Under the pieces are notes generated by a model. That model was not told the origin of the DNA and did not search any database. It was given only the letters and a program-made list of their open reading frames with translations. The translations under genes and the position numbers were made by a program. A stretch of DNA of 64,000 nucleotides from a virus, in the IMG/VR virus record IMGVR_UViG_3300030107_001446, positions 1-64,000 of that record, one strand, 5' to 3'. Shown here in pieces: positions 51,636 to 56,830 of the stretch. Numbering within the stretch: the stretch's first letter is position 1; every line of letters begins with the position of its first letter.

Positions 51636-53002
51636 GTTTAAAGATAGAAGAGATCACCTTAAGTAATCTCATATTTAATGAGACATATACTAGGAAGGTC
51701 TTACCATTCATAAAGGATGAGTACTTTGATACTCATACTCATAAGGTATTGTTTAATGCCTTATCAGATTATGTAAATAAATTTGAGGCTACCCCCGAAC
51801 CTAATGCCCTAAAGATAGAAGTAGAGAAACGTCGGGACATCTCCGAGGAAATATATCAGGAGGTCGAGCAGTTTCTTAATAATTTAGATAGGGAAGCGTA
51901 TAACGAGGACTGGCTTGTTGAAACCACTGAGAAGTGGTGCAAAGAAAGAGCAATTTATCTTGCTCTAATGGAGTCTGTCAAGATAGCTGACGGACAAGAC
52001 AAGACACGTACAAAGGATGCGATACCTAGTATCATGTCTGAAGCCCTTGGTGTGTGTTTTGATGATCATGTAGGACACGATTACATACAGGACTCTGATG
52101 AACGATACGACTTCTATCACAAGAAGGAAGAGAAGATACCATTTGATCTTGAGTATCTTAACAAAATTACAAAAGGTGGTCTACCTAATAAGACTCTTAA
52201 TATCGCACTTGCTGGTACAGGTGTCGGGAAGTCTTTATTCATGTGCCATGTTGCTAGCTCCGTGCTGCTCCAAGGGAGGAACGTTCTCTACATTACAATG
52301 GAGATGGCAGAGGAGAAAATTGCAGAGCGAGTTGATGCCAACCTCTTGGACATCCCAATCCAATCACTCAACGACCCACTCCTCACAAAAGAAAAATACT
52401 CCTCCAAGTTGCTTCAGTTAAAGAAGAAGACACAGGGTAAGTTAATCATCAAGGAGTATCCCACAGCATCAGCACATGTGGGTCACTTCAAGGCACTCTT
52501 AAATGAGTTGTCCATGAAGAAAGGATTTAGTCCTGATATTATATTCATAGACTACTTAAATATATGTGCTTCAGCTAGATATAAAGGGACTATAGTTAAC
52601 AGTTATACCTATGTCAAAGCGATTGCAGAAGAACTTAGAGGTTTGGCGGTTGAGTTTAATGTTCCTATCGTCAGTGCAACCCAAACAACTCGTAGTGGGT
52701 TTGCTAACAGTGATGTCGATCTTACTGATACCTCTGAGTCATTCGGTCTTCCCGCTACTGCTGACCTTATGCTTGCTCTCATCAGTACAGAAGATATGGA
52801 ACAACTCGGACAAATAATGGTCAAGCAGTTGAAGAATCGCTATAATGATCCTACAATGTATAAGAGATTCGTTGTAGGGATTGACAGAGCGAAGATGAGG
52901 CTGTATGATTGTGAGCAAAGTGCACAAGATGATATCATCGACGCAGGTGATATCGAACCAACAACTAATACTAAGAAACAATTCGAGGGATTTAAAGTAT
53001 AA
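51632..53002 (+). CDS. gp41: Replicative helicase gp41
   Basis: 456 residues (T4 gp41 475), DnaB-like. Walker A AGTGVGKSLF (about 194-203), VLYITMEMAEEKIAERVDAN, Walker B IIFIDYLNICAS, then PIVSATQTTRSG. The hexamer drives forks and pairs with primase gp61. Overlaps neighbours by 1-4 bases. Confidence 0.96.
   Translation: MSLKIEEITLSNLIFNETYTRKVLPFIKDEYFDTHTHKVLFNALSDYVNKFEATPEPNALKIEVEKRRDISEEIYQEVEQFLNNLDREAYNEDWLVETTEKWCKERAIYLALMESVKIADGQDKTRTKDAIPSIMSEALGVCFDDHVGHDYIQDSDERYDFYHKKEEKIPFDLEYLNKITKGGLPNKTLNIALAGTGVGKSLFMCHVASSVLLQGRNVLYITMEMAEEKIAERVDANLLDIPIQSLNDPLLTKEKYSSKLLQLKKKTQGKLIIKEYPTASAHVGHFKALLNELSMKKGFSPDIIFIDYLNICASARYKGTIVNSYTYVKAIAEELRGLAVEFNVPIVSATQTTRSGFANSDVDLTDTSESFGLPATADLMLALISTEDMEQLGQIMVKQLKNRYNDPTMYKRFVVGIDRAKMRLYDCEQSAQDDIIDAGDIEPTTNTKKQFEGFKV
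52881..52909 (+). promoter_or_regulatory. Sigma-70-like promoter before mazG
   Basis: TTGACA (52881-52886), 17 bases, TATGAT (52904-52909), in the end of gp41 and about 93 bases before mazG. Confidence 0.6.
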
Positions 53003-53655
53003 TGGCAGAAAATTTAACCAACCAAGCACCTTCTGATCCAGAACAGGATAAAGCTGCTGAAGAGTTGTCGAATGCTAGTCAAGATAAAGTAGACTCTAAT
53101 AAGGATCAAGCCAAACAGATGGCTGATGATGCACCAAAGACTGCTGAGGACTATGATACTGATGAGCGTATGGGTAGTGCTCCTGCTGCTCGTAAAGTAC
53201 TACAAGATAAGAAAAAGAAATCAAAAGAGAAAGGTGGTAAGAAAGAGAAGTTTGAGATTGACTTAGATAACTACATGGCATTTGTAGATAGAGTTACATC
53301 AAATGCTAGTAAGAATTTCCCTGACTTAATAGACAGATATAAAGAGTTGCATGATGCTAAGTGTAACATCTCTCGTCTTGACACTGCTGCATCAGGTATG
53401 TGCTCTGAAGCAGGTGAGTTTATGGAGATAGTTAAGAAGTTAAAGTTCCAAGGCAAACCATATAACAGAGCAAACAAAGAGCACTTAGAGAAAGAGTTGG
53501 GTGACATCATGTGGTATGTTGCACAAGCAGCACTAGCATTAGACCTTAGATTAGATGAGGTTATCTATACTAATACTCTTAAGTTAGCAGCACGTTATCC
53601 TAATCAAATGTTTGAGGTAGGATACTCAGAAAACAGAGCACCAGGGGACATATGA
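53002..53655 (+). CDS. mazG: MazG-like nucleotide pyrophosphohydrolase
   Basis: 217 residues. A disordered acidic/basic N-terminal extension of about 85 residues precedes the MazG fold: DTAASGMCSEAGEFMEIVKK (E136, E139, E142), then LEKELGDIMWYVAQAALALD (E165, D168). These acidic residues bind Mg and the substrate pyrophosphate. Cyanophage MazG is thought to hydrolyse (d)GTP or (d)CTP and was proposed to alter ppGpp-linked host physiology. Confidence 0.92.
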   Translation: MAENLTNQAPSDPEQDKAAEELSNASQDKVDSNKDQAKQMADDAPKTAEDYDTDERMGSAPAARKVLQDKKKKSKEKGGKKEKFEIDLDNYMAFVDRVTSNASKNFPDLIDRYKELHDAKCNISRLDTAASGMCSEAGEFMEIVKKLKFQGKPYNRANKEHLEKELGDIMWYVAQAALALDLRLDEVIYTNTLKLAARYPNQMFEVGYSENRAPGDI

Positions 53656-53993
53656 TATCATTAATACCTGACGACAACCCTAGACCAGAAGAAGAGATAG
53701 CAAACTTCTGGTCATCTGCCAATAGGGATGCTTCCTCAAAAGAGTTACTCTATGTTATGGACAATAAGATAGATGATTTACATAGGAAGTTAGATAGATT
53801 ATCAGGTGATGACTTAGTTGCACCACCAGAGGTGGAGACACATGGTAGTCTGTCAGTTGTGGTACCAATGGATGATATGAAAGACATCGTTGCTCAACTA
53901 TGGAAGTCACGTGATACTGAACCAAGGGTGGGTGAATTATGGAGAAAATATAAAGATTTAATATTTGAGCTTGACAAGGAAGAAGAAGGGTAG
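53652..53993 (+). CDS. 113-residue acidic protein
   Basis: Starts MISLIPDDNPRPEEEIANFW; helical and acidic (DDLHRKLDRLSGDDLVAPPE, GELWRKYKDLIFELDKEEEG). No recognised motif. Its final codons contain the TTGACA of the RNA promoter (53971-53976). Confidence 0.65.
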   Translation: MISLIPDDNPRPEEEIANFWSSANRDASSKELLYVMDNKIDDLHRKLDRLSGDDLVAPPEVETHGSLSVVVPMDDMKDIVAQLWKSRDTEPRVGELWRKYKDLIFELDKEEEG

Positions 53994-53999
53994 TATATT
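53971..53999 (+). promoter_or_regulatory. Sigma-70-like promoter for the candidate ncRNA
   Basis: TTGACA (53971-53976), 17 bases, TATATT (53994-53999). The stop codon of the preceding gene lies in the spacer. Transcription would start near 54006, exactly at the first hairpin of the structured region. Confidence 0.8.
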
Positions 54000-54218
54000 A
54001 AAAGGGTGAAGAAGGCCACTTCACATGGGAGTGACTGAATAAACTTACTGGCATATAGCTGGTTAAGGTGATGAGACACAGGTGGTGCTGCTCCTAGGGA
54101 ACTAGGAGAATCGACTTACCAGTCGGGTCTCAGGCAGAGGAGAAATTCTAAACTGTAGAAATGCCCTCCTCTTGATGGTACACAGGACTCCATCCTCCCC
54201 ACCCACACACAAGAGAGA

Positions 54219-54225
54219 CTAAATA
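54219..54225 (+). promoter_or_regulatory. Late-promoter variant CTAAATA
   Basis: CTAAATA overlaps the 5' arm of the terminator. Late transcription from here would begin near 54232, inside the hairpin, so the downstream gene could be read without passing the full terminator. Confidence 0.45.
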
Positions 54226-54250
54226 GAGGGTAGAGATACCCTCTATTTTT
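54223..54250 (+). terminator. Intrinsic terminator of the candidate RNA
   Basis: ATAGAGGGTA-GAGA-TACCCTCTAT: a 10-bp perfect stem with a tetraloop and a T-run ending directly at the ATG of the next gene (54251). Confidence 0.9.
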
Positions 54251-55594
54251 ATGGCTTACGAACCGTCGGAAGGATTGTTTGCAGGTCTAGCGTTGGTTCC
54301 ACATAATGTATTAGATGCAGCAAAGGATAATAAAATTTGCTTTGAGAAATTGATGAAGACTGCTAGAGATAATCTAGCAGGTCCAAAAGTGTTAGATGCT
54401 TCAGACGAAAAGACAAAGAATGGTATGATTGCTGCCACTGATATTGATTCAGCGACAGCAGCAAAACAGAAAGCAATTTATGCTGACCTAGCAGCAGCAT
54501 TGTCTGCTATACTTGGTGCTAGAAATAAAAAAGATTCTATACCAGATAATGTATACCTGACAGGTAACAAGTGGCATCCAAACGTGGAGAAGTTTAAGAT
54601 AGAAGCGTTTGGGATGAAAGATTATAATTCATCTGACGTTATCTTACAGTTTGGTAGTGAGTATCATGGTATATCTTTAAAGAAGAAACCCAAGTCACAG
54701 TCAGCAAGTCCCACCCTTATCAACAACGCATTCTCACAGTATGTTGAGGGTGATGACTTGAAGTTTGCAAAGGATATGTTGGATGACCATAGGATTAAAT
54801 TCTTTGCGGGTGTTATCAAGGAAGCATGTGATGACCCTAAGTTATTGAAGGGGTTTGCTACCAAGTATGATAAGGGTGGTAAGTCTATCGCTGATTTGAA
54901 TCCAGATAACCTTGCTGATGCTAAGGAGTTATGGAATATAAGAGTCCCAAGAGTAAAGAATAATAAGGTAGAAAATATTGCATTGATAAACCTTAAGTCT
55001 GAGAATGAGTTAGCAGACAGAGATGGTTTGGTACGAAAAATAGATTCAACTGGTAAGCAAGAAGAGTTTAGGAAGTTTGTTAACAGTAAGCTAGTCAGTC
55101 AGGGTAATGTATTGAACCCATTGTATAAGGGTTTCTTAGATATAATGAATAGACCTAAGGTCAAAGATAAACTAGCATCCACTCTATTAAATAGGGTGTT
55201 AAAGTTAAGTCTCTTAGATGAGTTGGACACTTGGGGTGACGCAGAATTTAAATTTTATCTGACAGAAGGTGTTGGAACTGTTGGTAATAACATGGAACCA
55301 CTGGTAGGACATGCTAATGTAGTTGATTTAGATAGTATTATAGTTGCTATAGCAGCATATCGTAATGCTAAGACTACTATAGAATTAAATAAGACAGAGA
55401 CATTTAGTCCAGGTAGAGAAGCAGCAAAGGTATTCTTTACTGTTGTTAAGGGTGCTGAGAGTAAGGATAGAATGCCTATACTTGATATTGAATTGAGATA
55501 CAAGGGTAGTTTCACTGCCTATCCTCAGTTCTTTGCAGGTATGACCAAGGAATTTAAGAAATTCTTAGAGACCATGGTCCCGTACTCAAACTGA
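54251..55594 (+). CDS. Conserved protein of unknown function downstream of the RNA
   Basis: 447 residues, starting MAYEPSEGLFAGLALVPHNV. The ATG follows the terminator T-run with no ribosome-binding site between. The DVILQFGSEYHGISLKKKP segment (about 127-145) faintly recalls the D...xLK strands of PD-(D/E)XK nucleases, but the acidic residues are not clearly placed. The C-terminal region ends RYKGSFTAYPQFFAGMTKEF. No confident family. Confidence 0.7.
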   Translation: MAYEPSEGLFAGLALVPHNVLDAAKDNKICFEKLMKTARDNLAGPKVLDASDEKTKNGMIAATDIDSATAAKQKAIYADLAAALSAILGARNKKDSIPDNVYLTGNKWHPNVEKFKIEAFGMKDYNSSDVILQFGSEYHGISLKKKPKSQSASPTLINNAFSQYVEGDDLKFAKDMLDDHRIKFFAGVIKEACDDPKLLKGFATKYDKGGKSIADLNPDNLADAKELWNIRVPRVKNNKVENIALINLKSENELADRDGLVRKIDSTGKQEEFRKFVNSKLVSQGNVLNPLYKGFLDIMNRPKVKDKLASTLLNRVLKLSLLDELDTWGDAEFKFYLTEGVGTVGNNMEPLVGHANVVDLDSIIVAIAAYRNAKTTIELNKTETFSPGREAAKVFFTVVKGAESKDRMPILDIELRYKGSFTAYPQFFAGMTKEFKKFLETMVPYSN

Positions 55595-55639: not shown

Positions 55640-56830
55640 ATGGCAAAGAACACACACCTTGAGCACCTTGAAGATGATATATTTAATCAGGGGTATGCGG
55701 GTGCAAAGAATTCAATTAACTTCCTCAAGTCATTAGAGGAGATGCTATCTACTGGTCACGGTGGTACCAATACTAGGGTGACCGTGAAGTGGGATGGTGC
55801 ACCTGCTATTATATGTGGTAAGGAACCTCAGACAGGGATGTTTTTCGTTGGCACTAAGTCAGTATTCAATAAGACTACCCCTAAGATTTGTTTCAATGAA
55901 GAGAATATAGACTATCATTATGAAGGTGCTATCAATAATATACTTAAGAAGTGTCTCAATGAGTTATCTAAACTACCTATAGATGGTGTGTTACAAGGTG
56001 ACTTATTATATTTTGACGTACCAATGGTGGTACAGATGTGTGGTAAGAAATGTTATAAGTTTAAACCAAATACCATTACATACTGTGTGGAATCAGATAC
56101 TGAGATGGGTAAGAAGGTAGGACAAAGTAAGTTAGGTATAGTATTCCACACCACATATCATGGTGATAGTATCACTGAGATGCATGCCTCTTTTGGTGCT
56201 GATGTGAAGGGTTTGCAGGGTGTTAAGGACGTTGCAGTATTCTCTTCAGACTTCCAGAATATAGATGGTAAAGCAAACCTTGGTACCTCTGAGAAAGCAA
56301 AACTTAAGACCCTAGTAGCATCTGCCGATAGGAATCTAAGAGCAGGTCAGAAATTCTTGAATGATATCAAAGAAGAGCGTGGCACGTTTGCCCATAATGC
56401 CCTGTTTAAGATATACTTCAACAGAGTAATCAAAGAGAATAGAATACCACCTTCCTCTGCTACGATGGCCAAAGGATTCTGTCACTTCGTAGATGAAAGA
56501 TACAATGCTGAGATCAATAAGAAGAAGACAGATAAGGCAAAGAAAATGTGGCAGGAAAGAAGGAACAAAGCTATAAATTACCTAAATAAAAGTAAGAGTC
56601 CAATGTATTCTGCCCTCAGTGGGTTTAGGAATCTGATGGATGCCAAACTTATTATCATAAATAAATTGAATAAGATAGAAGGAATAGGTACCTTCTTGGA
56701 AGATGAAAATGGTTACCGTGCTACTACACCTGAGGGATTTGTAGCAATCAGAGAGGGAACCGCATTGAAATTAGTTGACAGACTTGAATTTAGTCGTGCC
56801 AACTTTACCGCAGCAAAGGATTGGGGATGA
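55640..56830 (+). CDS. ATP-dependent ligase-fold nucleotidyltransferase
   Basis: 396 residues. VKWDGAPAIICG carries the KxDG motif with nucleophile Lys (K50); DGVLQGDLLYF (115-125) matches motif III; PEGFVAIREGTALKLVDR (364-381) matches motifs IV and V (EGFV, LKLVDR). These define the covalent nucleotidyltransferase fold of DNA/RNA ligases and caps. A roughly 150-residue insertion separates III from IV. It overlaps the NMNAT-like gene (ATGA), suggesting joint action on nucleic acid ends or a cofactor. No standard gp30 or Rnl family match. Confidence 0.75.
   Translation: MAKNTHLEHLEDDIFNQGYAGAKNSINFLKSLEEMLSTGHGGTNTRVTVKWDGAPAIICGKEPQTGMFFVGTKSVFNKTTPKICFNEENIDYHYEGAINNILKKCLNELSKLPIDGVLQGDLLYFDVPMVVQMCGKKCYKFKPNTITYCVESDTEMGKKVGQSKLGIVFHTTYHGDSITEMHASFGADVKGLQGVKDVAVFSSDFQNIDGKANLGTSEKAKLKTLVASADRNLRAGQKFLNDIKEERGTFAHNALFKIYFNRVIKENRIPPSSATMAKGFCHFVDERYNAEINKKKTDKAKKMWQERRNKAINYLNKSKSPMYSALSGFRNLMDAKLIIINKLNKIEGIGTFLEDENGYRATTPEGFVAIREGTALKLVDRLEFSRANFTAAKDWG

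Follow-up and report, generated by a model that had tools for sequence, protein, structure and literature searches.

A manA-family RNA lying between a predicted promoter and terminator in a T4-like marine cyanophage

Introduction

The manA RNA (Rfam RF01745) was described in 2010 by Weinberg et al. as a riboswitch candidate, usually located in potential 5′ UTRs, and was graded as a certain RNA, a certain cis-regulator and a probable riboswitch; the copies reported then came from marine DNA and metagenomes, from cyanophages and from two gamma-proteobacteria (PMC2864571). Later papers list it in cyanophage S-CREM1 (PMC9964418) and in others (PMC10665884), and Rfam 14 gives 48 significantly covarying pairs for the family (PMC7779021). 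The 2010 description assigned no function, and the literature searched gave neither a function nor a ligand. The other structured RNAs reported in cyanophages, namely wcaG, PhotoRC-II and the glutamine riboswitch, are also labelled cis-regulatory. A different kind of element, the PeSL, is a cassette of early promoter and stem-loop at module boundaries in T4-like phages (Arbiol 2010 and Comeau 2014, as cited in PMC4503421). Early genes of cyanomyoviruses are thought to be transcribed by unmodified host polymerase, and the cyanophage late promoter is given as NATAAATA (PMC2984593).

Results

A full-length manA RNA downstream of mazG

The window, by which we mean the whole 64-kb stretch analysed here, belongs to a 199-kb IMG/VR virus record carrying T4-like genes (UvsX, a DnaB-type helicase and MazG). 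The features at and around the RNA are as follows.

53002..53655, + strand: mazG pyrophosphohydrolase (PF03819, phrog_22758)
53652..53993, + strand: 113-aa ORF separating mazG from the RNA, without a family match; the −35 box lies in its 3′ end
53971..53999, + strand: sigma-70-type promoter, TTGACA at 53971-53976, 17-nt spacer, TATATT at 53994-53999, 11/12 match
54006..54204, + strand: manA RNA, Rfam RF01745, full length (model 1-192/192)
54006..54024, + strand: P1 hairpin (from the Rfam alignment); predicted +1 at 54006 or adjacent to it
54153..54185, + strand: loop-loop pseudoknot, CUGU at 54153-54156 with ACAG at 54182-54185
54219..54225, + strand: late-promoter-like CTAAATA overlapping the start of the terminator hairpin
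54221..54250, + strand: intrinsic terminator, 12-bp stem at 54221-54248, GAGA loop, U-rich tail
54251..55594, + strand: 447-aa gene of unknown function (PHROG 3060), its ATG directly 3′ of the terminator

A cmscan search against Rfam 15 returned manA as the sole match across the whole 64 kb, at 54006-54204, with 171.4 bits and E = 6.6e-46 against a gathering score of 55.2. The window copy matches all helices and conserved segments of the model with hardly any non-standard pairs, and is, virtually beyond doubt, a manA-family RNA of a T4-like marine cyanophage. The first-pass annotation had seen here an RNA that fits no family it recognised and might be a new phage regulatory RNA; the Rfam match overturns that view and rules out a new family, the window RNA being a further copy of one already described. 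None of wcaG, PhotoRC-II and the glutamine riboswitch matches the window RNA in Rfam, and a snoR35 match was dismissed as chance, its 20 bits (E = 0.054) falling short of the gathering score of 40. A sub-threshold glutamine riboswitch-like match (25.1 bits) lies just beyond the window at G000:C1:66994-67041 (+).

No credible protein is encoded within 53971-54250, where the only overlapping ORFs are 30-61 aa long and either antisense or out of frame. The same annotation had reported this absence correctly, but had contrasted it with an otherwise packed genome, and the interval is not uniquely gene-free: the 257-nt gap between the 113-aa ORF and the next gene is one among 15 gaps of more than 150 nt separating the 64 non-overlapping window ORFs of at least 100 aa each. 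It had also placed the RNA beside mazG, with coordinates and description that stand, but missed the intervening 113-aa ORF. That ORF has no Pfam or PHROG match and no relatives in the libraries searched; its DNA is partly conserved at the equivalent position in L068, L072, L086 and L178. No tRNA or tmRNA was found within the 64-kb window. In the DUF6267 protein encoded further downstream, at 55640-56830, the sequence VKWDGAP is similar to the lysine motif seen in ATP-dependent ligases and nucleotidyltransferases.

Deposited annotations of four isolates place small hypothetical proteins over manA, in S-SSM5 (L122:2505-2711), P-HM2 (L124:2556-2730), P-SSM4 (L130:2545-2718) and P-HM1 (L132:2455-2631). 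These proteins are probably spurious.

Fold, covariation and a pseudoknot

The minimum free energy of 54006-54250 is −81.8 kcal/mol (z = −3.2), with an equally stable fold in 0 of 200 shuffles, and the predicted fold is consistent with the covariance-model structure of manA, bearing out the claim of a strongly structured, multi-helix RNA. Compensatory changes at the helices, which the first-pass annotation had set as a check, are present. We aligned 45 diverse manA copies from isolates and IMG/VR with MAFFT and counted the pairs of the Rfam structure together with one pseudoknot placed by eye. Across these copies 89.9% of cells were paired, whereas column shuffles gave 79.2% and slid partners 36-48%. 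Double changes occurred in 38 of 59 pairs, a level reached in 0 of 500 shuffles. The pseudoknot, CUGU with ACAG, was paired in 98.9% of cells and showed double changes in three of its four pairs (C-G to A-U and G-C to U-A exchanges); it may correspond to the 'pseudoknot?' marked in the original description (PMC2864571). Since MAFFT misaligned P1 (42.9% paired), this hairpin was tested copy by copy, and 94% of the 157 distinct copies listed, against 39% of shuffles, have a stem of 5 bp or longer in the interval from the −10 box to the core. The GNRA-type loop noted earlier does exist in the window copy, as GGAA, yet it is not conserved: the same hairpin has UUCG-type or other loops in other copies, which rules out a conserved tertiary contact through this loop.

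A nearly invariant segment might be read as coding, since the conserved GGGAGUGACUGAAUAA spells GUG-ACU-GAA-UAA and could specify a short leader peptide. Its stop is lost (to CAA) in L122, L132 and L141, however, and its first bases pair in the closing helix. The conserved peptide is largely refuted by the unconserved stop, and we regard it as extremely improbable.

A promoter fused to P1 throughout the family

The window promoter site by itself proves little, because chance alone would give about nine promoter-like sites in every 3 kb. Its weight comes from its placement relative to the RNA, which is conserved family-wide. A pattern scan of IMG/VR for manA returned at least 120 stretches; among the matches listed, 121 copies had sufficient upstream sequence, and 103 of them (85%) have a promoter of at least 11/12 within the 85 nt that precede the core. 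In random stretches from the same contigs the figure is 0.6%. P1 begins 3-6 nt past the −10 box, that is, at or beside +1, in 144 of the 157 distinct copies listed. The earlier proposal of a promoter whose start coincides with the first hairpin agrees with the 11/12 match, with P1 at the predicted +1 and with this family-wide placement.

The promoter overlaps an upstream terminator hairpin in 55 of the 157 distinct copies (35%) among the matches listed, an arrangement that would insulate the RNA from upstream transcription. One such composite, GAGGGTTGACACCCTC-TTTTTTTATG, carries its −35 box within the loop. In the terminator-promoter composites generally (for example L042 and L054) the −35 box is often in the loop, with GAGGGTTGACACCCTC followed by T7. 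Inspection of the window promoter revealed no hairpin with a T-run, so it is not of the composite type.

A terminator containing a late-promoter-like motif

The terminator hairpin, with its 12-bp stem and U-rich tail, has z = −5.6, in keeping with the strong terminator reported at first pass. Across the 5′ end of this hairpin runs CTAAATA. The motif is short and only modestly enriched in intergenic DNA: 12 of the 45 plus-strand TAAATA sites in the window fall in the 11.5% of it outside ORFs of at least 100 aa. Its position inside the terminator suggests that a late transcript would start 3′ of the RNA and lack the 5′ arm of the terminator.

The window copy has the sequence anatomy of a standalone small RNA, with its own promoter and its own terminator, and a discrete transcript in this phage is likely on that anatomy. 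Of the two options offered at first pass, a separate RNA or a leader riboregulator, the former fits the window copy better; the latter corresponds to the published guess for the family. A same-strand gene does follow the window RNA, but behind the terminator and a late-promoter-like motif of its own.

Exchange of the gene behind the RNA

Four loci (L039, L068, L072 and L086) have the mazG side and the DUF6267 side in common with the window, as well as the RNA and terminator as far as the ATG, where identity is 80-90% over 54022-54256. All five keep [AC]TAAATAGAGGG-loop-CCCTC-T-run-ATGG, the arms of which co-vary. The gene behind the RNA falls into one BLAST cluster in the window, L039 and L068 (PHROG 3060-like in the window), and is replaced at the equivalent site in L072 and its cluster-mate by a PHROG 1462 gene. 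A further locus, L178, is 95% identical to the window over 53352-54199, to the end of the RNA, and then continues with another hairpin and gp32. L178 and the swapped-gene relatives place the RNA at a module junction where the downstream gene is exchangeable.

Such a junction could also reflect a recombination linker, in which promoter, RNA and terminator form a PeSL-like mobile cassette that is kept for module shuffling through its conserved sequence. The likeness of L178 and the window up to the RNA end and their divergence right after it would fit, as would the differing sites of manA between phages and the resemblance of the 35% composite promoters among the copies listed to PeSLs (PMC4503421). 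A linker role would not, however, demand compensatory changes in most helices and in the pseudoknot, and there is one manA per genome, whereas shuffling regions are said to hold many PeSLs (PMC4503421). We consider a linker improbable. The window RNA departs from PeSLs in that its promoter is not composite and manA is single-copy, the likeness lying in the roughly one-third of listed manA promoters that overlap an upstream terminator. PeSLs themselves are not known to carry a large conserved RNA.

One copy per genome, varied neighbours

Each of 23 carriers (14 isolate genomes, six IMG/VR contigs, P-RSM1, S-SSM4 and the window's record) holds exactly one manA, at differing sites. The RNA adjoins gp32 in P-HM2, purL in P-SSM2 and talC in P-TIM40 and P-RSM6; it follows gp23, in the gp23-gp3 region, in S-SSM5, P-RSM4, P-HM1 and MED4-213, pstS in P-SSM3 and P-SSM4, and ferredoxin in P-SSM7, and lies near gp43 in S-SSM7. 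Single copy number was set aside as proof of action in trans, being weakened by the glutamine riboswitch, a cis element by Rfam type, which also occurs at most once in the same genomes; wcaG, tried as a second comparator, had no match in the panel and was uninformative.

Among the 115 IMG/VR and isolate loci listed, the genes 3′ of manA include gp32 (22), talC (19), hsp20 (13), thyX (11) and the DNA polymerase region (7), and also tRNA genes. The latter, mostly tRNA-Asn, lie 8-19 nt after manA in L003, L022, L035, L065, L095, L105 and L110, and the RNA and the following tRNA are probably co-transcribed there. In many other phages no terminator follows manA, and the RNA ends 29-90 nt before early or middle genes; where gp32 or talC stands this close behind without a terminator, manA is necessarily also a 5′ leader. 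What follows the RNA varies: some copies precede a terminator or a companion hairpin, some a tRNA, and others plain sequence in which a Shine-Dalgarno may be present or absent. No conserved expression platform was found 3′ of manA in the 169 distinct copies listed.

These contexts bear on the published proposal of a cis-acting riboswitch or attenuator, in which a ligand would stabilise the manA fold and CCUCCC, the 3′ strand of its closing helix, would otherwise pair with the terminator GAGGG or a Shine-Dalgarno, switching read-through or translation of the next gene. The proposal has behind it the family's original standing as a candidate usually found in potential 5′ UTRs (PMC2864571), the frequency of early and middle genes behind manA (gp32, talC, thyX, hsp20 and the DNA polymerase region), and long invariant unpaired segments that resemble a ligand pocket; a terminator directly after a structured RNA is typical of transcriptional riboswitches too. 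In the window the closing strand can indeed pair with GAGG in the terminator arm. This pairing is not specific, because unrelated upstream terminators in the group share GAGGG arms, and we discarded it as evidence of an antiterminator switch. A conserved platform is missing, and in the window clade the downstream gene changes between relatives and comes with a late-promoter-like motif of its own. The riboswitch is nevertheless the main rival and a serious one, though somewhat less likely than not.

An undescribed hairpin 3′ of manA in other phages

At 24 of the 115 loci listed, an undescribed hairpin of about 45 nt, GACCTAAGATGCAACT-(loop)-GGGCAGAT-GGTC in DNA and GACC-UAAGAUGCAACU-loop-GGGCAGAU-GGUC as RNA, lies 8-19 nt past the manA end. 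Scanned alone, the pattern occurs in at least 120 places, of which three serve as examples.

L178:1218-1250, − strand: companion hairpin
L066:1126-1157, − strand: companion hairpin
L071:8395-8426, + strand: companion hairpin

Among the matches listed, 104 have a manA core just upstream; the remainder are L141, where a divergent but alignable manA is present, and 15 that lie too near a contig end, 14 of which show an apparent manA 3′ end. Within this set the hairpin is seen exclusively 3′ of manA. Its outer stem exchanges G-C for A-U, and it has no Rfam match. Neither the window's record nor any of 14 isolates contains the exact pattern. A T-run closes about half of the listed matches, and these hairpins could terminate transcription.

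Association with Prochlorococcus phages

In a panel of 17 accessions from Sullivan et al. 2010 (PMC3037559), manA is present in six of six Prochlorococcus-isolated and two of 11 Synechococcus-isolated phages (Fisher one-sided P = 0.0023, uncorrected for phylogeny). Beyond the panel it is present in P-RSM1 and S-SSM4 and absent from S-CAM1, S-CAM8 and S-SKS1. Over the isolates W01-W28, manA occurs in all tested Prochlorococcus-isolated myophages and in a minority of Synechococcus-isolated ones.

A host origin of manA was considered and rejected: the two database matches, L136 and L137, are on contigs with phage genes. The remaining 299 genomes in the family of the Prochlorococcus assembly G001 yielded no copy, and neither did the remaining 368 in the class of G002. 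Our exact-pattern scan did not recover the two gamma-proteobacterial copies of 2010, and is too strict for this to count against them.

Discussion

The window RNA matches the manA model in full and sits, like earlier copies, in a marine T4-like cyanophage. It differs from the family as described, cis-regulatory and in 5′ UTRs, in having its own promoter and terminator and in preceding an interchangeable gene with its own late-promoter-like motif. Beyond what Rfam records, we find a promoter fused to P1, a single copy at varied sites, gene swapping behind the RNA, a 3′ hairpin in other phages and a link to Prochlorococcus.

The reading we prefer, with confidence evenly divided for and against it, is that of a self-contained early regulatory RNA. 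Unmodified host RNA polymerase would transcribe manA early from the sigma-70 promoter, starting at the first hairpin; we infer the early timing from the view that early genes use this polymerase. In the window phage the transcript would end about 245 nt later, at the terminator just before the next start codon, and the next gene would be transcribed late from its own late-promoter-like TAAATA inside the terminator. The discrete early transcript would act by itself, its strictly conserved unpaired segments binding some factor of the host or the phage, independently of whichever gene follows. That the RNA acts mainly in trans is a plausible part of this scheme, to which we lend slightly less than half of our belief. 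Strand-specific RNA-seq of P-HM2 infecting Prochlorococcus MED4 has been published (PMC5082946); its text reports no figure for the manA interval of that phage (GU075905 4771-4969).

Taken across the family, manA may have been mis-typed as a cis-regulator. We put forward, tentatively, that T4-like cyanophages use manA as an early RNA acting in trans, present in single copy, linked to infection of Prochlorococcus and borne on a promoter-fused cassette that moves between modules, sometimes with an undescribed 3′ domain. The anatomy of the family (the P1-fused promoter, the changing neighbours, the 3′ element and the Prochlorococcus link) helps to assign a function and proves none. If manA is only a leader, the present copy is a matter of routine annotation. 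Concrete predictions that separate action in trans from action in cis follow from the relatives with a swapped gene and from the companion hairpin. With a strong promoter in every tested Prochlorococcus-isolated myophage, manA is a candidate host-takeover RNA, and the host concerned in that role would be the ocean's most abundant photosynthetic cell.
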